In this document: positions 2,264 through 42,182 of the stretch, in pieces
Position numbering within the stretch: the first letter of the stretch is position 1
How the letters are laid out: every line of letters starts with the position of its first letter
DNA from: Gloeomargarita sp. SRBZ-1_bins_9
Lineage (GTDB): Bacteria > Cyanobacteriota > Cyanobacteriia > Gloeomargaritales > Gloeomargaritaceae
Assembly: GCA_039794565.1 (NCBI GenBank)
Contig: JAUQVX010000005.1
Span: forward strand, 1-42,500
Reading direction: 5' to 3'
DNA length: 42,500 nt
Program-made: the position numbers and the translations under genes
The notes under the pieces: model-generated
Database searches by the model: none
Seen by the model: the letters and a program-made list of their open reading frames with translations, nothing else
Told to the model about the DNA's origin: nothing

Positions 2264-4328
2264 GTTCGGGCTGGTGGGAGGTGGGACAGGCCAGGGGATG
2301 GGTCAGGACATTGGCTGCAGCGGATGGATGCCAGAGCACTCCCCAGTGCATGGGAATGAACAACGTGCCTGGTACTATGTCGGATGTGACCTTGGCGGGT
2401 AGCTGCACCCTGCCCCGGCGAGAGGTCACCGTGACCAGGGTTCCATCGGCAATACCTAGCTTTTCGGCGTCCTGGGGATGGATCTCCACAAAGGGCTGGG
2501 GGTGCATTTTCTGAATCTTGGGAATACGACCGGTGCGGGTTTGGGTGTGCCAGTGCCCATACAGTCGCCCCGTTGTCAGCAAAAAGGGATATTCGGCATC
2601 CACCGGCTCAGCCACCCCAAGGGCCTCCTCTAGACCAAAGTGGGCACGGCTATCAGGGGTGCCAAAGCGATGGTCGGTGTAGAGTCGCTTTTCGGCCTGG
2701 GCTTCCGCATCGGGGCAACCGGCTGGGCAGGGCCACTGCAATGGACCAAGACGCTGTAAACGCTCGTGACTCAGGCCGGATAGGTCACAGGGACGCCCGC
2801 GGGTTAGGGCAGCGAATTCGTCGAATACCTCGGCACTGGTGGCAAAGGCAAATTGCCGGTGAAAACCCAGGCGACGCCCTACTTCGGCAAAAATTTCCCA
2901 GTCGGCTTTGGCTTCCCCCGGTGGCGACCGAAAGGCTGGGCATAGGGTAACCCGTCGCTCGGAATTGGTCATGGTGCCAGTTTTTTCCCCCCACTGGGCG
3001 CAGGGCAACAACAAATGGGCATAGGCACTGGTCTCGGTCGGGAAATAGCAGTCCTGATAGACCGTAAACGGTGAGCGGGCCAGGGCAGCTTGGACCCGTT
3101 CTTGATGGGGCAAACTCACCGCAGGATTGGTGGCGGCAATCCACAGTAGGTGCACGGCCCCTTGCTCTAGGCCCTCGATCATTTGCCAGGCGGTGCGACC
3201 CGGTTGGGGGGCAATGGCTCCGGGCGGTAGTCGCCAGTGCATCTCTACGTCGCGGCGATGGTCAGGGTTAGTCACCAGCCGGTAGCCCGGTAGTAGATGG
3301 GCCAATCCCCCGGTTTCCCGACCCCCCATGGCATTGGGTTGACCTGTCAAGGAAAAGGGTCCCGCCCCTGGCTTGCCCACTTGCCCGGTTAAAAGATGCA
3401 AATTGATGAGACTGCGGGCCTTGGCGGTACCCTCACGGGACTGGTTGATGCCCATGGACCAAAGGGACAAAACGGCTGACGCTCCTGCCCACCAGCGGGC
3501 CGCCTGGGTAAGCTGCTCAAGGGTAATCCCACACTCCTCAGCCACCCAGCGGGGATGGTATTTCTGCACGATGGCCCGATAGGCAGCAAAGCCGCTGGTG
3601 TGCTGGGCAATGAAAGCGTGGTCAAGGGCATCCCAAGCAATGAGCAGGTGGGCAATGCCGTGCAGTAAGTAAATATCGGTGCCTGGACGGATGGGCAGAT
3701 GCAAGTCGGCGACTGCCGCTGTTTCCGTGCGCCGGGGGTCCACCACAATTAACTTCACGTGGGGATTTTTCTTGTGGTGCTGCCGTAGACGGTTAAACAC
3801 AATGGGATGGCATTCAGCTGTGTTGGTGCCGATCAAAAACGCGCAATCGGTCAGCTCCAAATCCCCATAACAGCAGGGCGGGCCATCACTCCCGAAGCTG
3901 GCCATGTAGGCCGACACAGCGCTGGACATGCACAGGCGCGAGTTGGTGTCGAAATTATTGGTACCCAGACACCCCTTGATGAGCTTTTGCGCCACGTAGT
4001 AGTCCTCGGTTTGCCACTGCCCCGAACCGTAAAGACAAATCCCCTCAGGACCCCATGTGCGCAGGACATGACGGATGCGCTCAACTAGGATCGTCAAGGC
4101 CTCATCCCAGGAAATGCGCACCCACGGCTGGTCCAGGGCAGGCCGGTACAGGGGATACAACAGTCGGTCCCGGTCCAGGGCTTCTAGGACAGTGGCCCCC
4201 TTGACGCAGACCATTCCTAGGGACGACGGATGCGCCCGGTCTCCCCGCACTTTTGCCCCGTCAACCACCTCCAGGCCACACCCCACGCCGCAGTAGGGAC
4301 ACAGGGTTTTGGTCAAGGTGCTAGTCAT
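2199..4328 (-). CDS. narB: Ferredoxin-nitrate reductase NarB
   Basis: 709-aa molybdoenzyme that reduces nitrate to nitrite with electrons from ferredoxin, carrying a [4Fe-4S] cluster and a bis-molybdopterin guanine dinucleotide. Cluster ligands are C10, C13, C17 and C41 (LCPYCGVGC, then GMVCVKG). C133 in NSRLCMSSA is the expected Mo ligand. The C-terminal domain carries the usual MopB-type barrel (GDGTLVTV-like region, then FIPMHWG). The length is close to NarB of Synechococcus elongatus (about 729 aa). The start ATG overlaps the nrtD stop by 8 nt; the frame is open further upstream, but residues before [13 protein letters not shown] have no family counterpart. It is the last gene of the nirA-nrtABCD-narB operon. 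Its 3' end runs 65 bp into gltS on the opposite strand. Confidence 0.96.
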
Positions 4329-9233: not shown

Positions 9234-10790
9234 TTACGAATGGGTCATCAAAACCTGTGTCCCTGGCTCAGCGGCCGCCGTCGCGCGGGGACGGGCCCCA
9301 AAGTCCCGAACCAAAATCTCCGTGAGCACCTCTAGCAATTCATCACAGGGGATCCCTTTGCGCACGCAAGTCCCCAAGCGGGCGTCCTTGCCCACCTTGC
9401 CCCCCAAGTACAGGTCCACCGCATCCACCATTTGCCCACCCTTACGGGCCTTGGTCCCCAGCAAACCGATATCCGCCACCTGGGGTTGGCCACAGGAATT
9501 AGGGCAGCCCGTCCAGTGAATCCGTACCGGGCGGGGCAACTCCAACCGCTCATCCAACTGCCTGGCTAGAGCGATAGCCCGCTGCTTGGTCTCAATAATG
9601 GCAAAGTTACAAAATTGCGCCCCCGTGCAGGACACGACCGCCCGCTGCAGGGGAGCCGGATGGATGGAAAACTTTTGTAACAATGGCTCGGCTAACAAGG
9701 CGGATAATTGGGTTTTGTGAATGTGAGGAATTAAAGCATTTTGTTCTACCGTAAAGCGCACTTCTGATTGACCATAAACCTCGGCTAGACGGGCTAGTTC
9801 AAACATATCCTCAGCCTGCAATCGTCCCACTGGTACATGCAAGCCTACATAGTAAAAACCAGCTTGTTTTTGCGGATAAACGCCGATATGGTCCCGCTTG
9901 TCCCAATCGATTAAATCCCTAGGTGCTGCTGTCAACAGGGGAAACGATAGTTTGGCCTGCACCGCCTCCCGAAATCGCTCAATTCCCCAGGCGTCAATCA
10001 GCCAGCGCAAACGGGCCTTTTGCCGGTTCTCCCGTAACCCATGGTCCCGAAAAATCTCCACTACCGCCTGTGATAGTTCAATCACCGTCTGATCCGGGGG
10101 CACCCAGGCATCTAAGGGAATGGCTGCATCGCAGCGCTTAGCAGAAAAAAAGCCCCCGACCAGCACGTTGAAACCCAACACCCCCTCCCGCCGGGCCGGC
10201 ACAAATGCTAGGTCGTTAATCTCGGCATGAACCGAGTTATCGCGGGTGCCCTCTATGGCAATGTTGAATTTACGGGGCAGGTTGGCAAATTCGGGATTGC
10301 CCTGGCCGTGGTTGGTAAACAGGTCCTGCAATTGTCTAAGCAAGGGACGAGTGTCAATTAACTCGTGGGCATCAATGCCTGCCGTCGGCGAACCCGTCAA
10401 ATTGCGAATATTATCCATCCCCGACTGCACCGACGTCAATCCGCAATGGTGTAGGGCCTCCAGAGTGGCAGGCAAATCCTCAATGACTATCCCCCGCAAT
10501 TGTAGATTTTGCCGGGTGGTAATATCGGCACTGCCCTCCTCACCATAGCGGTCTATTATCTGGGCTAAGATGCGCAGTTGGTGACTGGTGATAATACCGT
10601 TGGGTAAGCGCAGTCGCAGCATAAACCGCCCGGGTGTGACCGGTCGAAAAAACACCCCTAACCACTTCAATCGCACCTCTAGGTCATCCTTGGGAATCTG
10701 CTCCCAACCCAACCGGGCAAAGGTGGCAATTTCCTCCTTGACCTTAAGGCCATCTTTTTCCCGCTTAATCGCCTCAAATTTGTTGCTCAT
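9234..10790 (-). CDS. nirA: Ferredoxin-nitrite reductase NirA
   Basis: 518-aa soluble enzyme that reduces nitrite to ammonium using six electrons from ferredoxin, with sirohaem and a [4Fe-4S] cluster. The four ligands are seen as C388-x5-C394 (SCTGAQFC) and C429-x3-C433 (TGCPNSC). Two copies of the nitrite/sulfite reductase ferredoxin-like half domain are present (for example RFMLRLRLPNGIIT near residue 55 and GFYYVGLHVPVGRLQ near 310). I choose ATG at 10790 (MSNKFEAIKRE); a GTG two codons upstream is possible. It is the first gene of the operon, downstream of an NtcA box and an NtcB site. Confidence 0.97.
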   Translation of the reverse strand: MSNKFEAIKREKDGLKVKEEIATFARLGWEQIPKDDLEVRLKWLGVFFRPVTPGRFMLRLRLPNGIITSHQLRILAQIIDRYGEEGSADITTRQNLQLRGIVIEDLPATLEALHHCGLTSVQSGMDNIRNLTGSPTAGIDAHELIDTRPLLRQLQDLFTNHGQGNPEFANLPRKFNIAIEGTRDNSVHAEINDLAFVPARREGVLGFNVLVGGFFSAKRCDAAIPLDAWVPPDQTVIELSQAVVEIFRDHGLRENRQKARLRWLIDAWGIERFREAVQAKLSFPLLTAAPRDLIDWDKRDHIGVYPQKQAGFYYVGLHVPVGRLQAEDMFELARLAEVYGQSEVRFTVEQNALIPHIHKTQLSALLAEPLLQKFSIHPAPLQRAVVSCTGAQFCNFAIIETKQRAIALARQLDERLELPRPVRIHWTGCPNSCGQPQVADIGLLGTKARKGGQMVDAVDLYLGGKVGKDARLGTCVRKGIPCDELLEVLTEILVRDFGARPRATAAAEPGTQVLMTHS

Positions 10791-10816
10791 GATCACGCCC
10801 CTAGAGTTAGTAAACC

Positions 10817-12675: not shown

Positions 12676-13638
12676 CTAACCTCCGATTTGATACATGGCA
12701 TGGGCAACCATTTCCCCCCGCACCCTGGGCTTCATCCCCAACAGTTGTTGATACACCTGCTGGCGTTGGTGGGGGTCCAGGCCCCGCAGGGAGATGCCCT
12801 CTTCCCGGAACAGACAGGCCCGCAACACCCCATCGGCGGATAGTCGCCAGCGGGAACAGGACCCACAAAAGGGCTGTGACTCGGATGCCATGAAGCCAAG
12901 GGTGAAACCGCTGTTGGTCCGAAACCGCAACACCGTGCTATCAGGGGGGCTGGGGATGGGGGTGAGTTGATAGTGGGCCTGTAGGCGGGCTTGCATTTCC
13001 TGGGCGCTGACAAAGGTGTCTTGGGGCAAATGGCAGGCGTATCCCACTCGCATCAGTTCCAAAAATCGGACCTCGGCAACGCCCTGCTGCTGGCCGTAGG
13101 TCACCATCGCCGACAGTTCCTGGTCGTTGATATGGCGCATGACCACCATATTGAGTTTGACCTGAAAACCCCCTTGTACCGCCTGGGCAATGGCTTGGGT
13201 TACTTGTTCCAGACCCTGCCGGTGAGTCAAGCGGTAAAAAGTTTCCGGTTGCAACGTGTCCAGACTGATGTTGATCCGGCACAGGCCCACCTGTTTTAGA
13301 AGCGGCAGGTAGCGGGGCAGCAGGAGTCCATTGGTCGTCAGGCTCAGTTCCAGACTAGGAATGGTGGCCAAGGCGGTGACAATTTCAGGGAACTCTTGGC
13401 GCAGCAATGGCTCGCCTCCGGTTAGCCGCACCTGCCGTATCCCCCAAGCGGCCAGCTCCGCTACAATATCCCGGTATTCCTCAGGACGCAGATAATGCTC
13501 AGCCCTAAGAAAGGGGGCTGCCACCGGCATGCAGTAGCGACACCGCAACTGGCAACGGTCCGTTAGGGATAGGCGCAACTTGCGGATCACCCGCCCCTGG
13601 GGGTCCACCAACTGGTTTGTTGCTGGACCTGCCGTCAT
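12676..13638 (-). CDS. moaA: GTP 3',8-cyclase MoaA
   Basis: 320-aa radical SAM enzyme for the first step of molybdenum cofactor synthesis, converting GTP to the 3',8-cyclo nucleotide used by MoaC. The SAM cluster ligands are C29-x3-C33-x2-C36 (RCQLRCRYC). The C-terminal cluster ligands are in FCGSCSRWRLSADG and the following RACLF. The protein ends in Gly-Gly, as active MoaA does. The ATG at 13638 has an AAAGGAG ribosome site 8 nt upstream and starts 13 nt after the moeA stop; earlier in-frame ATGs (13662, 13725) would overlap moeA. Confidence 0.95.
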   Translation of the reverse strand: MTAGPATNQLVDPQGRVIRKLRLSLTDRCQLRCRYCMPVAAPFLRAEHYLRPEEYRDIVAELAAWGIRQVRLTGGEPLLRQEFPEIVTALATIPSLELSLTTNGLLLPRYLPLLKQVGLCRINISLDTLQPETFYRLTHRQGLEQVTQAIAQAVQGGFQVKLNMVVMRHINDQELSAMVTYGQQQGVAEVRFLELMRVGYACHLPQDTFVSAQEMQARLQAHYQLTPIPSPPDSTVLRFRTNSGFTLGFMASESQPFCGSCSRWRLSADGVLRACLFREEGISLRGLDPHQRQQVYQQLLGMKPRVRGEMVAHAMYQIGG

Positions 13639-18182: not shown

Positions 18183-18818
18183 CTAGGAGGGGGAACCAAA
18201 AATTTCTTCAACCAAATCCCCCAGGGGTCGAACGGGTGGGGTCGTCCGTTGGGGGTGCGGGTCCCGTGCGGGCAAGATGGCATCCGTCAAGTCGGCGTCC
18301 TGGAGATTAACCCCCGTCAAATTCGCCCCGCATAAATTGGCTTCCTGCAGGTTGGCCCCCGTCAGAATCGCCCCCCGTAAATTGGCCACGATCAAAAACG
18401 CCCCCCGCAGATTGGCCCCGCTCAAATTGGCCCCGTACAGGTTGGCCTCGATGAGATTGGCATAACTCAAGTCCGCCCCGCTCAGACCCGCCCGGGTCAA
18501 ATCCGCCCCCCGCAAATAGGCCTTACTCAGATTAGCTCCCTCCAACTTGGCCCCGTTCAAATTGGCCATGTATAGATCCGCCGCCCGCAGCACCGCTTTG
18601 GTCAAATCGGCCCCATTGAGATTTACCCGGCAGGCAAGGGCATAGCTGAGGTTAGCTCCCGCCAACTGAGCTAGCAGCAAATCCGTGCGAAATAAGTTGG
18701 TGCGGCTGAGGCTGGCTCCCTCTAGGACTACGCGGCTCAAATCCCGGCGGCTCCAGTCGGAACCGTCAAAATTGCGCTCCCCCTGGCGATAGCGATCCTG
18801 CAACTCCCGCGGCGTCAT
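18183..18818 (-). CDS. Pentapeptide-repeat protein, coupled to hybrid kinase gene
   Basis: 211-aa protein made mostly of A(N/D)LxxA/G pentapeptide repeats from about residue 25 to 180 (for example GANLSYA, GADLTKA, GANLSKAYLRGADL). These fold as a right-handed quadrilateral beta helix. It begins [17 protein letters not shown], a common lead-in in cyanobacterial members, and ends in a short non-repeat tail (LGDLVEEIFGSPS). There is no signal peptide, so it is probably cytosolic. Its ATG overlaps the stop of the hybrid kinase gene (ATGA), so translation is likely coupled. The molecular role is unknown. Confidence 0.88.
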   Translation of the reverse strand: MTPRELQDRYRQGERNFDGSDWSRRDLSRVVLEGASLSRTNLFRTDLLLAQLAGANLSYALACRVNLNGADLTKAVLRAADLYMANLNGAKLEGANLSKAYLRGADLTRAGLSGADLSYANLIEANLYGANLSGANLRGAFLIVANLRGAILTGANLQEANLCGANLTGVNLQDADLTDAILPARDPHPQRTTPPVRPLGDLVEEIFGSPS

Positions 18819-21800
18819 GGGGCCACCCGGATTTCCTGCTCCAACTGTCGCACCCACTGGGCCAAAGTCTCGACCAAGGCGGGCACCTGCTCTAGGTCCG
18901 ACCGGGTTTTCGCCGCTTCCTCGAGGGTGCAGGCCAAGTTTTGGATAGCCGCCGCCCCCACATTGGCGCTGGCCCCCTTGAGCTGATGGGCTTCCCGCTG
19001 GAGCATTTCCCAATCGCCTGTGACCACCGCCTGTTGCAAAGCCGTCAACCGCGCCTGGGCGTCCTGAAGATAGAGTTGGAGCAGTTCGCCGATAAAGTCG
19101 GGGTCATCCCCAAAGGTCGCTTTGAGATGGTCCAGGCTAATGAGAGATTGGCCGTCGGCTGCCATTGTGGTTGACCCTTTGACCTGCTTTCTTGCTATGA
19201 TACGTTCTTTCCAACGCCGCAGGGCCTCCCCCAGTTGCTCCCGGTCAATAGGCTTGCTGAGATAGTCATCCATGCCCGCTGCCAGGCACTTGTCCCGGTC
19301 GTCCTTCATGGCGTGGGCCGTCAGGGCAATGATCACCGGTTGGGGAATGGGGAGTTGGCGAATGCGCTGGGCGGTTTCGTAGCCGTCTAAATCCGGCATC
19401 TGGCAGTCCATCAGAATCAGGTCGTAGGTCCGCTGTTCCAGCAGCCGCAATACTTCAATCCCGTTAACCGCCACATCCGCCTGATAGCCCAACTGGCGCA
19501 GTTGTCCCAGGGCCACCCTTTGGTTGACCACATTATCTTCCGCCAGGAGGATGCGCAGGGGAGATGACGCCAGTGACCCAGGAGGACATCCCAACTGCAC
19601 AGACGGACCCTGGTAGAGTTCCTGGAGTAGGTTCACTAAGCGTTCCTGGCTCACCGGTTTGAGCAAAAACCCGTGCAACCGTTGGTCTAAAGGGGGGAGG
19701 AGGGTCGGGTGACTGCGGCTGGGGGTCAGGAGAACCAAGGGTACCGCTGGGGGTAACACCCGGGCCAATTCCATCGCCCACTCCACCCGCGCCACCAGCA
19801 CCCCCTGATAGGTCTGGGTTTGCCAATGGGTCAACGCTTGGGGGACACCCTCGCACGCGGTCACCCGTAGCCCCAGGCCACTTCCCAGATAGAACAAACT
19901 GCGCCGGCTAGGGCTGTGGTCATCGATCACCAGCAGACGATAGCCTTGCCAGGGGTAACTCGGTGGCTGTGGCGGGTGCAATTGCCGGGGAAAGGTCACC
20001 TCAAACCAAAAGCAGGACCCTTTTCCCAACAGGCTATCTACCCCAATCCGCCCCCCCATCAATTCCACCAGTTGCTTGCAGATCGTCAGCCCCAAACCCG
20101 TTCCGCCCCGCCGCCGGGCTGGTGACGCATCCACCTGCACAAACCGGTCAAACAGGGTGGCAATTTTGTCTGGGGGAATACCAATGCCTGTATCTGTCAC
20201 GCTGAAGTGCAAGGTGGCCGTTTGGTCGTCTACCGTTAGCGGGTCCACCTGGATGGTCACACTCCCCTGCTCGGTGAACTTGATGGCATTGCCCACCAGA
20301 TTCACCAGGATTTGCCGCAGGCGCGTGCTATCCCCCCGCAAATGTACCGGCACCTCCGGCGGCAGCAGTAGCGTCAAGTGCAAGCCCTTTTCCAAGGCCA
20401 GGGGTGCCTGTAAATCCAGCACCGACTCTAGACAATGACGCAGGTTGAAATCTTCTTGCACCAATTCCATCTTGCCCGCCTCTAACTTGCCCAGGTCCAG
20501 TAACTCGTTGATCTGGTTCAGGAGAATCTTGGCGCTGGTTTGGATGGTGGTCAGGTAGTCCCGCTGCTCCCGTGTTAGGGGCGTCGCCAACAGCAACTCC
20601 GTCATCCCCAAGATGCCGTTCATGGGGGTGCGGATTTCGTGGCTAATGTTGGCTAAAAACTCCGACTTGGCCCGGCTGGCGGCTTCCGCGGCGCGACGGG
20701 TCTCCTCCAATATGCGGTTTTGTTCTGCCAACTGTAACCGTTGTTCCCGCTCCTGGGCCAACAGACGGGCCTGGGCCAGAGCAATGCCCACCTGATTGGC
20801 CACATCCTCCAGCAGGCTAATTTCTTGGTCCGTCCACACCCGGGGTCGGTCGCACTGCTGCAAACCAATCACACCGTTAGCTTCCCCCTGGTAGGACGTG
20901 CGCACCACCAGCAGCGATTGAATCCCCAACTGGTGACACAGGGCCTGCTGGGATTGCAACAGGGGGTCGTTGGCGACATCGGCCGAGGCCACCGCCCGGT
21001 CTGCACTCAAAACCACTGCTGCATGGGGGTTGTCCACGACCGGGATCGTGTCAATCCCGCAAGGGGAAATGCCCGGTGCCACGTATTCCGCCACGACCGT
21101 CAAGCGGGGCTGGGGGTCTTGCTCGTAGGTCAACAGCAGACAGCGGCTGGCCTGGAAAACCGGTCCCACCTGCTGCACGGTCGCTTGGAAAATCTGCTGG
21201 GCATCCAGGCTGCGGCGAATCTCTTCGGTAATCTGCTTGAGGAGTAAATAGCGCTGGAGTTGTTGTTGCAGGGCCATTTCCGCCTGTTTGCGCTGGGTGA
21301 TGTCACTTTGGGAACCGGCCATGCGATAGACCTGCCCATCACTATCCCGAATGGCCAACCCCCGGCTGAGCATCCAGCGGTATTCCCCTGATTCGTGGCG
21401 CATGCGGTACTCGCTCTGGAAATGGTCCCGTTGGCCCTGCAAATGGGCGGTGACCTCCTGCCGTACCCGGTCATAGTCCTCGGGGTGGATGCGCTCAAAC
21501 CATTGCTCCGGGTCCCAGATGGCCGCCTCCGCCGGCAAGCCCAAAATTGCGTTCCACCGGGGCGAGACGTAAATTGTATTGCTTTCCAAATCCCAGTCCC
21601 ACAGGCCGTCATTGGCGCCGTTCATGGCCAGTACATAGCGTTCCTGGTTCAGCCGGTTGGCTTCTGCCATCTGTTTGCGGGCGGTGATGTCGCTTAAGGT
21701 ACACACCAGCTCCTGTACCTGCCCCTGGGTATCCAACTCCACAGCAACGCTGACCATTAACCACACCCGTTCCTGGGAATCGCTCCGGTATAACCCCATG

Positions 21801-23100: not shown

Positions 23101-23829
23101 CTAACGCCCCCGTACTGAGCCATCGGGCATCAGGGTCCCGCGCCAGGTGACGCTGGTTAGCAACGCCCCCTGCAACTGCGCCCCGTAGAGATTGGCGCCG
23201 CTGAGGTTGGCCCCGGTCAAGTTGGCCCCCGCTAAATTGGCCCGGCTGAGGTTGGCCCCTGTTAAATTGGCATCCCGCAAATTCGCTCCTTGCAAATCGG
23301 CGCTGCTGAGGTTGGTTTCGTTCAGATTGGCCCGGGACAAGGCGGCAAAGCGCAGATTACTCTCGGCAAGGTTGGCCTGATAGAGCTGGGCCTGCACCAG
23401 CAACGCTCCCTGCAAGTCCGCCCTGAACAAACTCGCCCCGCTCAAATCCGCATCCCGCAGGTCAGTCCTGCGCAACTGCGCCCCCGTCAAATCCGCCTGC
23501 ACCAGTTTGGCCGTCACCAAAAAGGCCTCATCCAACAGGGCACCTTGGAGATTGGCCCGACTCAGGTTGCTGAGAATTAAATTGCACTGGCGCAGGTCCG
23601 CCCCCGCCAGATTCGCCCCCTGGAAATTGGTCTGCTGCAACACACTGCCGGTGGCTTTCACCCCCGCCAAATTCGCCCCCTGCCAGTCGGTGCCGGCCAA
23701 TTCACAGCGCAGGCACTCCCCCTGGCGAAACCGAGGAATGTGGTCCGGGTTAGGTTTGCGGGTCTGGGCCAGGACAACACCCGTTCCCCCCAGAGCCAGC
23801 AAAACGAAGGCAGTGACAACTGGTCGCAT
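23101..23829 (-). CDS. Exported pentapeptide-repeat protein
   Basis: 242-aa protein. The N-terminus MRPVVTAFVLLALGGTGVVLAQT is a typical signal peptide with a likely cut after LAQ or LA, so this copy is probably periplasmic or thylakoid lumenal, unlike the other three pentapeptide proteins in the window. After FRQGECLRCELAGTDW about 30 pentapeptides follow (GANLAGADLRQCNL, GANLTGANLSGANLYGA), ending PDGSVRGR. I choose ATG 23829 because a GGAG lies 8 nt upstream; ATG 23835 is possible. It is divergent from valS with about 100 bp between. It is not obviously in an operon with the kinase gene, given the 275-nt gap. Confidence 0.85.
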   Translation of the reverse strand: MRPVVTAFVLLALGGTGVVLAQTRKPNPDHIPRFRQGECLRCELAGTDWQGANLAGVKATGSVLQQTNFQGANLAGADLRQCNLILSNLSRANLQGALLDEAFLVTAKLVQADLTGAQLRRTDLRDADLSGASLFRADLQGALLVQAQLYQANLAESNLRFAALSRANLNETNLSSADLQGANLRDANLTGANLSRANLAGANLTGANLSGANLYGAQLQGALLTSVTWRGTLMPDGSVRGR

Positions 23830-23930
23830 GGCCATCTCTCCACACACTTCCCCATTCAAGCCCAAGGACGTTCCACTAGCCGGGGAAGTTCTTACGATAG
23901 ACTAAAGTACGCGGGAAATTGCCCTTGCCC

Positions 23931-34934: not shown

Positions 34935-36071
34935 ATGAAGGTCCCTAACCTGTTACAACTGGCACGCCAGGGGGATCCCGATGCGATTGCCGCTCTGATG
35001 ACCCAAGCTCTAGCGCCCCAGGGGATCACCGCCCAAGCCAAACGGCGCCAGGGTTGTTTAGAAGTGGTATTGACTGGTAATCCGGCACCGGACCAGCGCT
35101 ATTGTTTGCAGGTCATTCGCCAGGGACTAATGCGACTAGAGGTGCCCACCATTCGCACGGTCAAGGTTTATGGCATGCGCACGGGGGAAACCTTCCCGGA
35201 ATGGATGGAGGTCTTCGGTTTAGATGGGGCACCGCCCGGGCGACGACCATCCCCGGTTGTCCCCCGCCCCCAGGCAGAAATCAAAGATGGGGTTTACCTT
35301 CCGGCTAGCCCCCTACACCTGACCAGCGATGAAGTGGACATTCCCTTAGAAACCTTTGCCCAAGAACTCCTACGACGCTATCAAAAGGGCGTGCGAGATT
35401 TTACCGGCGTCAAGTTGATTCAGGCGTCCTTAATGGATGCGGTGTTAGACGAAATCATCCTGCAAGAGGCAGATCTAAGCCGGGCTATATTGCGGCGCAG
35501 CAAGATGCGGGGAGCCATTCTCAAAAACGCCAACTTTTCCGGCGCCAATCTGATCGAAGCCGACCTGACGGAAGCGGATTTGACAGGCGCCCACTTTGGC
35601 TGTATAAAGCTAGGGGGTCAAGCCGTGAATAATTTAGTCGGTGCCGCCGTTCCCGTCAGTACCAACCTCAAGAAAGCGATACTGCTGCGGGCCAACCTAA
35701 CGAACGCCGATTTCAGCCGGGCCGTTTTAGAACAGGCTTGTTTGGATGAAGCCAATCTCACCGGTGCCATCCTTACCCGCGTCAATGCCAAGGGCTGTTC
35801 GTTTGTAGGGGCCACCTGCAACCGGGCGGACATGAGTTGGGCGACCTTCGAAGGCGCCAATTTCACCGATGCCAACCTCAGCCGGGTCAACTTGAAGCGG
35901 GCCAACCTGGTGGGGGCCGATTTAAGCCGAGCCAACCTGTGGTACGCCGACCTCACCGAAGCCAACCTTATGCGGGCCAATCTCCATCGGGCCAACCTTA
36001 CAGGGGCTAAATTAATGGGCACCCAAATGCCCGATGGGCGCATTATGTTTGACAAGCGCTACACCGGTTGA
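34935..36071 (+). CDS. Pentapeptide-repeat protein with cyanobacterial N-terminal domain
   Basis: 378 aa. Residues 1 to about 100 form a non-repeat domain (LLQLARQGDPDAIAALMTQAL, GITAQAKRRQGCLEVVL, VKVYGMRTGETFPEWMEVF) of a type found on several cyanobacterial proteins. After a linker and a QELLRRYQKGVRDFTG lead-in, pentapeptides run from about 155 to 365 with one interruption (HFGCIKLGGQAVNNLVGAAVPVST at about 215-240). It ends MPDGRIMFDKRYTG. No signal peptide. The 270-nt gap upstream, shared with the divergent TamB-like gene, contains a possible -10 (TAGAAT near 34828) but nothing else I recognise. Confidence 0.88.
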   Translation: MKVPNLLQLARQGDPDAIAALMTQALAPQGITAQAKRRQGCLEVVLTGNPAPDQRYCLQVIRQGLMRLEVPTIRTVKVYGMRTGETFPEWMEVFGLDGAPPGRRPSPVVPRPQAEIKDGVYLPASPLHLTSDEVDIPLETFAQELLRRYQKGVRDFTGVKLIQASLMDAVLDEIILQEADLSRAILRRSKMRGAILKNANFSGANLIEADLTEADLTGAHFGCIKLGGQAVNNLVGAAVPVSTNLKKAILLRANLTNADFSRAVLEQACLDEANLTGAILTRVNAKGCSFVGATCNRADMSWATFEGANFTDANLSRVNLKRANLVGADLSRANLWYADLTEANLMRANLHRANLTGAKLMGTQMPDGRIMFDKRYTG

Positions 36072-37000: not shown

Positions 37001-38200
37001 TCACAGCTTCGGCAAGCGTGCCCCCTTCAGATTCGCCCCAACCGGCCTAGCGTGCAAGCGAGCCTGGCGCAGGTCCGCCTCACTAAAATCAGTCCCATCG
37101 AGCAGGGCATCGATCAAATCCGCCTGCTGGAAGACGGCCCGACTGAAGTTAGCCCCCCGCAGGTCGGCCCGGTGCAGATTCACCATAGTCAGTTCTCGCC
37201 GGCTCAAATCCACCCCCTGGAGATTACAGCCCGATAGGTCTGTGCGATGCAGTTTGACGTCCGTCAGAACCGTCATCCGTAAATCCGTGCCAGCCAGGTT
37301 AGCTCCCGTTAGATTGGCATTGGTCAGGTTGGCGCCCCATAACTGGGACCCCCGCAGGTCTGCGCCGGTAAGAATCGCACCACTCAAGTTCGCCCACGTT
37401 AAATTCACGCGCCGCAAATCGGCGTCGGCCAAATTGCAGTCCGTCAGTATCGCCGAACTCAAGTCCGTCCAGCCCTCGTCCCCATATAGGTCTGCCCCCT
37501 GCAGTACAGCTCGGTTCAAAATCGCCGCACTCAAACAGGCCTGCCTTAAGCATACGCGGCCCAGTTCAGCCTCCGTTAGATCAGCCCGGATCAAATGGGC
37601 GCCGGTCAAATCCGCTCGGTATAGGTCAGCGCGAGTAAGATTGCAACCGGTCAAATCCGCACCCCGAAGATTAGCCCGGCTTAAGCCCACCCCACTCAAT
37701 TCACCCCGCACCAGGACCGCACCTGCCAGGTTTGCCCCCCCTAAATCCGCCCCGGCCAACTGCACCCGCGCCAGGTAAGCCCCTTGCAAATCGGCCCCGC
37801 GTAAGTTACAGCCGGAGAGGGTCGCCCCATTCAAACTGGCCTGGCGGAGATTTCCGTCGCGGAGATCGGCCTCCGTAAGATTGGCCCCATCCAACTGGGC
37901 CTGAAACAAACTGACTCGCGCCAAGTTAGCTTCCACCAGATTAGATCCCCGTAAATCCGCTTCGCTCAAGTTGGCCTGCTGCAGATTCACCCGCACCAAT
38001 TCCGCATGGCGGAGATTAGCCTGGACCAAATTCACAGCCACTAATTGGCCATAGCAGAGGTAGGCCCCTTGCAAATTTGCCCGGGCGAGAAACGCCTCAT
38101 TGAGGACTATCCCCTCCAACAGTTGTCCGGCCAATTGCACCTGGGAAAAGGACCGCTTACCGGCGTTATAGGCCGCTTGCAATTGCAACAGGGGTGACAT
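37001..38200 (-). CDS. Long pentapeptide-repeat protein
   Basis: 399 aa, the longest of the four pentapeptide proteins in the window. After a lead-in MSPLLQLQAAYNAGKRSFSQVQL nearly the whole chain is A(D/N)LxxA-type repeats, about 70 in number, with a short break (YGDEGWTDLSSAI at about 245). It contains several Cys at the centre position (LSGCNLRG, LTGCNLTRA, LTDCNLADA). It ends VGANLKGARLPKL without a signal peptide. It is upstream of psbX on the same strand with only 65 nt between the stop and the psbX start, and 160 nt away from the rRNA operon. Role unknown. Confidence 0.88.
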   Translation of the reverse strand: MSPLLQLQAAYNAGKRSFSQVQLAGQLLEGIVLNEAFLARANLQGAYLCYGQLVAVNLVQANLRHAELVRVNLQQANLSEADLRGSNLVEANLARVSLFQAQLDGANLTEADLRDGNLRQASLNGATLSGCNLRGADLQGAYLARVQLAGADLGGANLAGAVLVRGELSGVGLSRANLRGADLTGCNLTRADLYRADLTGAHLIRADLTEAELGRVCLRQACLSAAILNRAVLQGADLYGDEGWTDLSSAILTDCNLADADLRRVNLTWANLSGAILTGADLRGSQLWGANLTNANLTGANLAGTDLRMTVLTDVKLHRTDLSGCNLQGVDLSRRELTMVNLHRADLRGANFSRAVFQQADLIDALLDGTDFSEADLRQARLHARPVGANLKGARLPKL

Positions 38201-38499: not shown

Positions 38500-38549
38500 C
38501 CGAACCCTGAGAACTGCATAGGGATAGATAGTCACACCAACAGACAAGG
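38500..38549 (-). repeat. 3' arm of pre-23S rRNA processing stem
   Basis: The plus-strand sequence CGAACCCTGAGAACTGCATA and the following bases are complementary to the sequence at 42132-42182 on the other side of the 23S gene. The two arms would pair in the precursor and give the RNase III processing stem; the innermost part includes the mature 23S end. Confidence 0.8.
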
Positions 38550-38654
38550 GGTACGGTCTGTTAGGACATCTCGGCTGAACGCATTACTGCGCTTACACCT
38601 GATGCCTATCAACAGGTAGTCTACCTGTGACCTAGGAGCACTCATCTTGGGGTG

Positions 38655-38688
<34 letters not shown>

Positions 38689-38830
38689 CTCCGCACATGG
38701 CTACCCTGCGTTTACCGTTGGCACGATAACAGGTACACCAGCGGTGCGTTCCTCCCGGTCCTCTCGTACTAAGGAGGACTCCCCTCAATGCTCCAACGCC
38801 TGTACCGGATATGGACCGAACTGTCTCACG

Positions 38831-39580
38831 CATGCGACCCCCGTATCACTACGGGCATGGACTATACCTTCATCCTGGCTCTCACTCACTAACGAGCACA
38901 GGAGCCGACGTTTGAACACCCTGACCAGCAGGGGTTCTCGACTTACGCTTGGGAGTTGACCAAGCCTAGGTCTCAGTCTCTACGGGATTAGGATGTGCCG
39001 TACACGCATAAACTCCTCCACTTGGCTGGACTTAATCGTGCGCCGCTTGGAATCATTCAACTCCTCAAAGCGGTCCACCTTCCGCGCCAAGTCCAAGAAC
39101 TCCTGAGGCGTCAACCGCGCCGAGTGCTTCAACTCCGCCACGATTTCCAGCACCAAGTCACATTGTGGCTGCTTAAGACGGACATAAGGCCGCAATTGCT
39201 GCAGTACCCGCTCTACCGCCCAAACCTTCACCACACTGTACTCACTCATCCCATCCTTGCGCTCCCGGATGTGGCCCACACCCAACATAGACTGCAGCCA
39301 TTCCAGGAACGCCCGATGCTTCCGCTTTTGGAAGAACGTGATACTTGGACGGATCTGGTACCCCAACCGGTAGTCCTTGCGACGGACCAGTTGGACATTA
39401 ATGCAGCCATCCCCATCCAAAAAGCCAGCAATGTAACTCCACACCTCAGGAGTCGTCATGGTACGGGCATCCTACTTACCCTCGGTATCGCCTTACCCGG
39501 GCGTTCGGTAACCCAGATAAGGTTCCACCGATTTTAGTCGGTTTGCTACTCCACATCACTGTGGAGTGACGCAATGAGTT
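38831..39580 (-). mobile_element. Group I intron in 23S rRNA at E. coli position about 2593
   Basis: 750 nt. Comparison with conserved 23S sequence gives the join AGAACGT | CGTGAGACAG, the region E. coli has as AACGTCGTGAGACAGTT. The intron starts AACTCATTGCG after an exon U and ends in G (...GTCGCATG), as group I introns do. Near the 3' end the sense strand has GATGAAGGTATAGTCC, the conserved P7 (S element) pattern. It carries a homing endonuclease gene inside. The site equals that of the Chlamydomonas chloroplast intron encoding I-CreI. Similar endonuclease-bearing introns were described in LSU genes of Synechococcus sp. C9 and S. lividus C1. Confidence 0.93.
38980..39459 (-). CDS. LAGLIDADG homing endonuclease, I-CreI type
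   Basis: 159-aa single-motif enzyme expected to act as a homodimer. The LAGLIDADG helix is IAGFLDGDGCI at residues 10-20; D17 corresponds to catalytic D20 of I-CreI. Further matches to I-CreI are MLGVGHIRERKDGMSEY (I-CreI EIGVGYVRDRGSVSDY), RPYVRLKQPQCDLVL (PFLKLKQKQANLVL, with the catalytic Lys) and ELNDSKRRTI (ALNDSKTRKT). Length is close to the 163 aa of I-CreI. The joined exons would form a near copy of the I-CreI target, so the intron probably moves by cutting intron-less 23S genes. Expression would come from the rRNA transcript; the ATG at 39459 is the natural start. The frame is intact, so activity is plausible. Confidence 0.93.
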   Translation of the reverse strand: MTTPEVWSYIAGFLDGDGCINVQLVRRKDYRLGYQIRPSITFFQKRKHRAFLEWLQSMLGVGHIRERKDGMSEYSVVKVWAVERVLQQLRPYVRLKQPQCDLVLEIVAELKHSARLTPQEFLDLARKVDRFEELNDSKRRTIKSSQVEEFMRVRHILIP

Positions 39581-39603
39581 ACGTTCTGAACCCAGCTCAC
39601 GTA

Positions 39604-39639
<36 letters not shown>

Positions 39640-39655
39640 GACTACAGCCCCAGGT

Positions 39656-39699
<44 letters not shown>

Positions 39700-39870
39700 G
39701 ACTCTTGGGGGAGATCAGCCTGTTATCCCTAGAGTAACTTTTATCCGTTGAGCGACGGCCCTTCCACACAGCACCGTCGGATCACTAAGGCCGACTTTCG
39801 TCCCTGCTCGACTTGTAGGTCTCGCAGTCAAGCTCCCTTCTGCCTTTGCACTCTACGGCTGATTTCCGAC

Positions 39871-39942
<72 letters not shown>

Positions 39943-40177
39943 AAACTGTCCCCTGCCCGGCTCACGGGTCAAGGTTAGAATCTCAGCCTGCTCAGAGTGG
40001 TATTTCACCGTCGGCTCCATGCCCCCCGCAAGGGGCACTTCTCAGCCTCCCACCTATCCTACGCAGAGCAAGCCAAAACCCAATCCCAGGCTACAGTAAA
40101 GCTTCATAGGGTCTTTCTGTCCAGGTACAGGTAGTCCGCATCTTCACGGACATGTCTATTTCGCCGAGCCTCTCTCC

Positions 40178-40289
<112 letters not shown>

Positions 40290-40317
40290 CGCCAGCTTCG
40301 CTTGCGCTAACCGGCTT

Positions 40318-40350
<33 letters not shown>

Positions 40351-41015
40351 CCTATACGTCGTCTTACGACTTAGCGGAGACCTGTGTTTTTGGTAAACAG
40401 TCGCCTGGGCCTCTTCACTGCGACCTGCTTTCGCAGGCACCCCTTCTTGCGAACTTACGGGGCCATTTTGCCGAGTTCCTTAGAGAGAGTTAGCTCGCGC
40501 CCCTTGGTATCCTCTACCAACCCACCTGTGTCGGTTTCGGGTACAGGCGTGTGCTTAACGGGGTTGGGCTTTTCTCGGGAGTCTGACGTCAGCCACTTCG
40601 CCGCCGTAGCGGCTCGGACTCGCGCCTCGGCTCAGGGCGTTTTCGCCGCCCCTCTTCGCGTCGGACACTTGCACGGGTAACCAACATCCCGCTGGCTTAG
40701 CCTCCTCCGTCCCCCATCCCAATCCGCACACGGTACGGGAATATTAACCCGTTGTCCATCGACTACGCCTTTCGGCCTCGCCTTAGGCCCTGACTCACCC
40801 GCCGCGGACGAACCTGCCGGCGGAACCCTTGGGTTTCCGGGGCATTGGATTCTCACCAATGTTTTCGCTACTCAAGCCGGCATTCTCACTTCCGAGCAGT
40901 CCACACCTGCTTCCGCTGATGCTTCACCCCACTCGGAACGCTCCCCTACCACAGTTGCCTGTCCACAGCTTCGGTACATGGCTTAGTCCCGTTCATTTTC
41001 GGCGCAGGAGCGCTT

Positions 41016-41073
<58 letters not shown>

Positions 41074-42131
41074 TTGTCTGTGCACCCCCACCTCCTTTGC
41101 CACTTAGCCATGATTTGGGGACCTTAGCTGGTGGTCTGGGCTGTTTCCCTCTCGACGATGAAGCTTATCCCCCACCGTCTCACTAGCCACCTCAACGGTT
41201 GGTATTCGGAGTTTGCCTCGATTTGGTACAGCTCTCGCCGCCCGCACCGAAACAGTGCTCTACCCCCAACCGGTATGGTGACCGCTGCGCCTCAACGCAT
41301 TTCGGGGAGAACCAGCTAGCTCCGGGTTCGATTGGCATTTCACCCCTAACCACAGGTCATCCGCCGATTTTTCAACATCGGTCGGTTCGGACCTCCACTT
41401 GGTGTCACCCAAGCTTCATCCTGCCCATGGTTAGATCACCCGGGTTCGGGTCTGTAAGCCCTGACAAACGCCCTCTTCAGACTCGGTTTCCCTACGGCTT
41501 CGCCATTTCCGGCTTAACCTGCCAGGGACTTACAAGTCGCCGGCTCATTCTTCAACAGGCACGCGGTTAGCCGTTTTAATCGGCCGCCCACTGCTTGTAG
41601 GCTGATGGTTTCATGCTCTATTTCACTCCCCTGCCCGGGGTTCTTTTCACCTTTCCCTCGCGGTACTGTTCCACTATCGGTCACTCAGGAGTATTTAGCC
41701 TTACGAGGTGGGCCTCGCAGATTCACACGGGTTATCTCCCATGCTACTCGGGATCCGGCTGGGCCTTCGACGCTTTCGACTACAGGACTTTCACCTTCTC
41801 TGGTGTGCCATTCAAACACTTCGTCTAGCGCCTCCGGTCCCGTGGTGCCGTCCCACGACCCCAGATGGCAAGCCACCTGGTTTAGGCTGCTCCCCGTTCG
41901 CTCGCCGCTACTAGGGGAATCGCGGTTGCTTTCTTTTCCTCCGGCTACTAAGATGTTTCAGTTCGCCGGGTTCGCTCGCGTCGGCCTATGGATTCAGCCG
42001 ACCGTCTATAGGGTTGCCCCATTCGGAGACCTCCGGATCATCGCTTGCTGCCAGCTCCCCGGAGCGTTTCGTCGGTAGCCACGTCCTTCATCGCCTCTGA
42101 GTGCCAAGGTATCCACCATCAGCCCTTGGAT

Positions 42132-42182
42132 CCTTGTCCATTGGTGATGACTATCTAACGCTATGCAGTTGTCAAGGTTCGG
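42132..42182 (-). repeat. 5' arm of pre-23S rRNA processing stem
   Basis: On the sense strand CCGAACCTTGACAACTGCAT and the following bases pair with the arm at 38500-38549 across about 50 nt with few mismatches. The segment lies between tRNA-Ala and the 23S 5' end. Confidence 0.8.

Follow-up and report, generated by a model that had tools for sequence, protein, structure and literature searches.

The window analysed, 42500 bp of the Gloeomargarita sp. SRBZ-1_bins_9 genome (G000; contig JAUQVX010000005.1, coordinates 1 to 42500), includes on its minus strand a 23S rRNA gene (coordinates 38540–42139), which gave the one match to the Rfam 23S model (RF02541) in the whole genome and is followed downstream by a 5S rRNA gene on the same strand. 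The 23S rRNA gene is interrupted by a 750-nt group I intron (38831–39580, minus strand), which shows up as a single large insertion within a hairpin loop when RF02541 is aligned across both exon sides. The upstream exon ends in GAACGT at 39581 and the downstream exon starts at 38830 with CGTGAGACAG, giving GAACGTCGTGAG across the joined exons. The insertion point corresponds to position 2593 of the E. coli 23S rRNA (L2593), which is the I-CreI insertion site, and the exact junctions uphold the preliminary description, which had placed the intron at the position of the Chlamydomonas chloroplast Cr.LSU intron. Homologous introns of 744–751 nt were found in six relatives, and the L2593 assignment is based on identical junctions in two of them, G036, where the intron is 745 nt, the size published for Thermosynechococcus elongatus, and G003, where the intron sizes fit those of Synechococcus C9.

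Elsewhere in the window, a CRISPR-like array of 12 copies spaced by 72–74 nt, with a repeat of ~37 nt (by eye), was seen at 53–910. Long ORFs recognised by eye as pentapeptide-repeat-like are located at 18183–19013, 23101–23865, 34935–36071 and 37001–38200, one of them adjoining the rRNA operon.

An intact ORF in the P6 loop of the intron (38980–39459, minus strand) encodes a LAGLIDADG homing endonuclease of the I-CreI type, with 159 aa and a single motif. The protein matched the Pfam family LAGLIDADG_1 (PF00961) over the cut-off (E 2.7e-12). The best PDB E-values (5e-48 and 6e-47) were to two engineered single-chain dimers, which score highest because they hold two copies, and the single chains of natural length were I-CvuI (1e-31), I-CreI (~1e-25) and I-MsoI (9e-23). 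The best of five structure models predicted from a 7-row alignment had a mean pLDDT of 86.7 (the others 85.6, 74.1, 66.4 and 63.6), and its fold matched I-CvuI (5a72; Z 21.0, rmsd 2.1 over 155 aligned residues), I-CreI (1n3e; Z 20.7, rmsd 1.8 over 149) and I-MsoI (Z 19.7, rmsd 2.3 over 155).

Asp17, Gln44 and Lys96 of the G000 enzyme match Asp20, Gln47 and Lys98 of I-CreI, and His48 replaces Arg51. Lys98 of I-CreI is counted as catalytic, and Gln47 and Arg51 are also residues with functional roles. Gln44 and Lys96 are present in all seven L2593 enzymes and Asp17 in six of them, and the Asp20 residue of I-CreI is catalytic (PMC6035192). An I-CreI-like endonuclease with the catalytic Asp and Lys had been proposed from the sequence, and the Pfam and PDB matches, the fold and residues Asp17 and Lys96 bear this out for the family, though the closest solved enzyme is I-CvuI (~41% identity) and not I-CreI. 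I-CreI has the same insertion point, fold and catalytic Asp and Lys but is only ~34% identical, and its Lys28, Asn30, Ser32 and Gln44, which touch target bases, are replaced in the G000 enzyme. I-MsoI shares the fold and family (~36% identity). I-CvuI comes from a Chlorella chloroplast and I-MsoI from a Monomastix chloroplast.

In G002, which is Gloeomargaritales cyanobacterium VI4D9 (accession number OV696605.1; endonuclease DNA identical) and belongs to the same genus, the catalytic Asp is replaced by Gly (LDGGG) in a frame that is otherwise open (L005, coordinates 1501–1977; also L012, 5001–5477). The VI4D9 protein is a probable dead nuclease, or else the change is a sequencing error, which is possible as L005 and L012 represent one assembly.

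With the gathering threshold applied, the Rfam search did not report the L2593 intron, and the Rfam group I model (RF00028) scored 16 bits on it (E 0.28; cut-off 50), a weak score because the ORF splits the group I core. A model with the ORF removed (R1), built partly from the G000 intron, finds it. RF00028 also detected a second group I intron elsewhere in the G000 genome (C2:23231–23439; L001, L067; 68.2 bits). This intron splits an apparent tRNA-Leu gene with anticodon UAA (by eye), the arrangement of the classic cyanobacterial and plastid trnL intron; ARAGORN found no tRNA around it.

Because of the weak RF00028 score, the secondary structure of the L2593 intron was examined in a comparative alignment of eight rows, comprising G000, the six ORF-bearing relatives and a hand-trimmed intron from G109, a genome from another class of the phylum. 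An alignment including the whole G109 intron misplaced P7, and the G109 sequence was hand-trimmed and realigned. In G000, the 5' exon ACGU (39581–39584; this and all other elements are on the minus strand) forms P1 with the internal guide GCGU (39569–39572); the exon half is invariant in 8/8 and its last U pairs with G. The intron ends in G at 38831, and this terminal G and the U.G splice-site pair are found in all eight sequences. A possible P10 strand, CUCA (39575–39578), is complementary by eye to UGAG of the 3' exon. The P2 hairpin (39548–39567) has both-side changes in 4 of its 8 pairs, and P3, in which CCGAC (39537–39541) pairs with GUCGG (38905–38909), is UUGGC/GCCAA in G109. P4 and P5 occupy 39482–39531, with invariant P4 strands at 39527–39531 and 39482–39486 and P5 strands at 39512–39522 and 39491–39501. 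P7, invariant in 8/8, pairs GACU (38975–38978), right after the stop codon, with AGUC (38860–38863). The P7.1 and P7.2 hairpins (38919–38965) show both-side changes in 1/6 pairs (38947–38965) and 2/5 pairs (38919–38933). P8 lies at 38873–38903 and the P9 hairpin at 38840–38855, where a C-G pair is U-A in G036 and G270 and the outermost pair is broken in 4/8.

The two strands of P6 lie at 39469–39481 and 38984–38994. Counted along the intron, the ORF opens within the P6 loop at position 122 and stops at 599–601 (38980–38982), with P7 beginning at 603, and its final codons, for the C-terminus of the endonuclease, overlap the P6 3' strand (intron positions 587–597). This overlap with the RNA structure may add constraint on the ORF. 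Some 10 nt ahead of the start codon, the P6 5' strand holds an AGGA recognised by eye, so folding of the RNA may compete with translation.

All seven ORF-bearing introns accommodate P1 to P9 together with P7.1 and P7.2, a few pairs being broken, and in the trimmed G109 intron P1, P3, P4, P6, P7 and P8 fit fully and the remaining helices partly. Pairing was retained in 96.6% of the 551 cells of the alignment versus 90.3% in shuffles, and both-side changes were found in 19 of 71 pairs versus 9.9 +/- 1.9 in shuffles, with none of 500 shuffles as high. The count of further pair types, the weaker one among five measures, was 40 versus 35.7, a value that 28 of the 500 shuffles attained. When the partners were slid, pairing fell to 36–43%, in a control that favours the drawn structure as this was drawn on one alignment row. 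P1, P4 and P7 do not vary across the eight sequences and are therefore supported by place and identity. The group I core, for which the preliminary description had proposed a covariance search, scores below the Rfam cut-off, so that the generic model comes close to the refuting outcome named there (no group I core), but the comparative analysis yields a full P1 to P9. The weak generic score could also suit an insertion other than an intron, that is, an intervening sequence excised without ligation or an assembly error. However, the covarying group I structure, the conserved splice-site pairs and the junction common to all seven ORF-bearing genomes contradict this origin as far as the sequences can tell, and it is considered extremely improbable.

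The published I-CreI target is 22 bp (PMC6035192). Of its 22 positions, exactly two are different in the joined G000 exons, namely position 3, with G for A, and position 21, with C for T; the preliminary description had estimated about two by eye. In the Rfam 23S structure, positions 3 and 21 are the closing pair of the insertion hairpin (GAAC with GUUC), and the target differences are one compensated rRNA base pair. The palindrome recognised by the homodimer can be read as the rRNA stem itself, with the half-sites being both strands of one hairpin stem, and a homodimer can therefore read both.

Seven genomes of the genus were looked at (G000–G006), and the L2593 intron was found in all five with an assembled 23S rRNA gene (G000–G004). 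G005 and G006, as well as G007 from another genus of the family, gave no 23S match and stand outside the intron counts. In a sample of 386 genomes from the phylum, six were found to carry the intron (G000, G003, G004, G036, G270 and G109), which is a lower bound given the strict filters of the intron-model search and accords with the earlier statement that such rRNA introns are rare in bacteria. Weak intron-model matches were additionally present in G381, G098 and G060. An exact pattern for the intact target was found in at least 150 of the 386 genomes, also a lower bound as the pattern-negative genomes include intron carriers and perhaps also sequence variants and assemblies without a 23S rRNA gene. 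A congener of G036, G205, has an empty joined site at L2593. A search of genome contigs with the endonuclease protein found one relative, and a search of viral contigs found none.

The G109 homologue (L016; insert 2703–3105 of the reverse complement) is 403 nt with the same junction and no ORF. G109 also carries a second 23S insert with a LAGLIDADG ORF, located between the L1917 and L1931 sites. Within the genus, introns at L1917 and L1931 are both absent from G000 and G001 and both present in G003, and G002 has only that at L1931 and G004 only that at L1917. The L1931 endonucleases of G205 (L015) and G003 (L011) are 76% identical, where the G003 and G036 ValRS and SurE proteins are 67% and 61% identical, making the L1931 endonuclease a candidate for recent transfer between the two genera.

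Haugen et al. (2007; PMC1995217) described L2593 introns in three thermophilic cyanobacteria, and the sizes reported there are 748 nt with a 159 aa product for Synechococcus sp. C9, 744 nt with 189 aa for S. lividus C1 and 745 nt with 175 aa for T. elongatus. As these introns are described there, they and the G000 intron have the same site, size and single-motif LAGLIDADG ORF, as well as P7.1 and P7.2. G000 differs in lacking the L1917 and L1931 introns, in its intron length of 750 nt and in being another species. In G003, the L2593 intron is 748 nt and the L1917 and L1931 introns total 1409 nt (743 + 666), which fits C9, and its L2593 protein is 84% identical to that of G000. G003 probably represents C9 itself or a very close relative of it, which would place C9 in the Gloeomargarita group.

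The divergence of the endonuclease was compared with that of two host proteins. Identity between G000 and G001, G003, G002, G004, G036 and G270 was 91, 84, 84, 82, 63 and 61% for the endonuclease, 90, 81, 81, 79, 69 and 68% for ValRS, and 93, 84, 83, 83, 61 and 63% for SurE, i.e. the endonuclease is within ~8 percentage points of the host proteins, on both sides. Between G000 and G001, dN and dS were 0.044 and 0.71 for the endonuclease, 0.061 and 0.83 for ValRS and 0.038 and 0.79 for SurE. Between G000 and G003, where dS is near saturation, endonuclease dN was 0.099 versus 0.132 (ValRS) and 0.107 (SurE). The endonuclease dN was higher in two other pairs, G002 and G003 (0.025 versus 0.008 for ValRS and 0.007 for SurE) and G036 and G270 (0.043 versus 0.025 and 0.021). 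Endonuclease dN/dS was 0.063 against G001, and was 0.06–0.12 in 8 of 11 within-genus pairs, those with dS < 2. When G000 was compared with G001 for 26 ORFs listed in the window (putative genes; the other 4 of 30 rows, 12988–13296, 18193–18462, 38669–38953 and 39581–39781, being excluded as antisense-like or rRNA), 3 had higher amino acid identity, 1 lower dS and 5 lower dN/dS than the endonuclease.

NirA was tried as a third host yardstick and dropped because it was discordant. The NirA-like gene (named by eye; window coordinates 9234–10796, minus strand) encodes a product 73% identical to those of two Thermosynechococcus-type genomes, 60–63% to those of three congeners and 90% to that of G001, and was likely transferred; this discordance suggests that the comparison is able to detect transfer.

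In the endonuclease tree, the seven cyanobacterial L2593 enzymes were found together (support 95/97), and within the genus the tree agrees with that of the 23S exons. The intron-RNA tree agrees in its deep splits, with unresolved tips and G002 and G004 weakly joined (73/85). The endonuclease appears constrained like a well-kept gene, with no clear sign of recent arrival, and from these few genomes and few host genes the intron looks like a resident of the genus, maintained much as a normally inherited gene would be. Given the host-like tree, the host-like divergence and the purifying selection, interspecies homing within the genus is probably not frequent. Recent homing into G000 from another bacterium or a plastid would fit the patchy occurrence of L2593 introns (6 of 386 genomes), the L1931 enzymes shared between genera, which suggest possible transfer at a site nearby, and the endonuclease dS to G001, which at the low end, below 25 of the 26 host ORFs, leaves some room for a recent arrival. 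However, this dS is 0.68–0.71 and not near zero, and both the agreement of the endonuclease and exon trees within the genus and the closeness to ValRS and SurE in all six relatives speak against recent homing, which is judged very unlikely.

A further possibility is a splicing-competent intron whose endonuclease is now retained for a different function, for example as a maturase aiding intron folding. Such a role would account for a gene that is under purifying selection yet gives few hints of spreading, and the low within-genus dN/dS, the open frame of VI4D9 despite its Asp to Gly change and the host-like divergence seen from G000 are consistent with it. However, the retention of Asp17 in six and of Gln44 and Lys96 in all seven L2593 enzymes argues against it, the ORF-less G109 intron, encoding no protein itself, has to splice without one, and the 3' end of the ORF is also held by RNA structure, which lowers change there. 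The I-CreI group is not known to have maturase activity, which also counts against another role, and overall this role is judged unlikely.

The locus is thus very probably a mobile L2593 group I intron with a homodimeric I-CreI-type endonuclease in its P6 loop, now resident-like in the genus. From the structure, the RNA would fold into P1 to P9, guanosine would attack at the site that follows the P1 U.G pair, and joining of the exons would restore an intact 23S rRNA. As in other members of the family, the endonuclease is predicted to cut an intronless 23S rRNA gene at GAACGT/CGTGAG, and repair would then copy the intron into the cut gene.

In the phylogeny with I-CreI and I-MsoI that the preliminary description had suggested, the G000 enzyme groups with the plastid enzymes, as the L2593 enzymes, including three from plastids, are set apart from the L1917 and L1931 enzymes (100/99). 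With only these three plastid enzymes in the tree, I-CvuI, I-CreI and I-MsoI branch outside the clade that the cyanobacterial enzymes form. In AU tests with the same three, a grouping of Gloeomargarita with plastids was neither shown nor rejected (p 0.107), and neither Thermosynechococcus-type enzymes with plastids (p 0.161) nor plastids alone (p 0.122) was rejected. When the L1917/L1931 outgroup was omitted, the branch separating the Gloeomargarita enzymes from the others had a support of only 40/51. The bearing on movement between cyanobacteria and plastids that the preliminary description had stated is thus only a possible one.

Gloeomargaritales have been placed sister to plastids in several analyses. 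One such placement, of plastids as sister to Gloeomargarita, is reported with modest support (PMC10631705). Haugen et al. (2007; PMC1995217) suggested a single acquisition of the element followed by vertical transmission, and their account leaves open the direction and mode of L2593 transfer. The L2593 intron and its endonuclease could be an ancient vertical resident of the Gloeomargarita lineage, under purifying selection and outside the cycle of gain, decay and loss, perhaps present already in the ancestor shared with Thermosynechococcus, though we regard this as distinctly doubtful. If it were true, and if the intron was present when plastids arose, the L2593 introns of green algal plastids, I-CreI included, could descend without horizontal transfer.

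In searches of mostly non-subscription literature, no report was found that joins Gloeomargarita, a group I intron and a homing endonuclease, and Gloeomargarita with 23S and intron matched, by title, an FtsZ paper. By its title, a Naegleria paper (PMC1464144) deals with a vertically inherited group I intron. The element type has been known since 2007, and the G000 intron is an added member of the L2593 family. Added here are a host in the Gloeomargaritales, to which the relatives used tie the element reported in 2007, carriage in 5/5 genomes of its genus with an assembled 23S rRNA gene, host-like divergence of the endonuclease as seen from G000 (faster than the host genes in the two close pairs above) under purifying selection, a relative lacking the catalytic Asp and an ORF-less relative in another class. 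The published model of gain and loss predicts that the endonuclease decays once its intron is fixed, whereas the G000 enzyme keeps a low dN/dS. The locus therefore provides a case for how such elements persist, whether by hidden homing between cells, by a second function or by constraint shared with the ribozyme.
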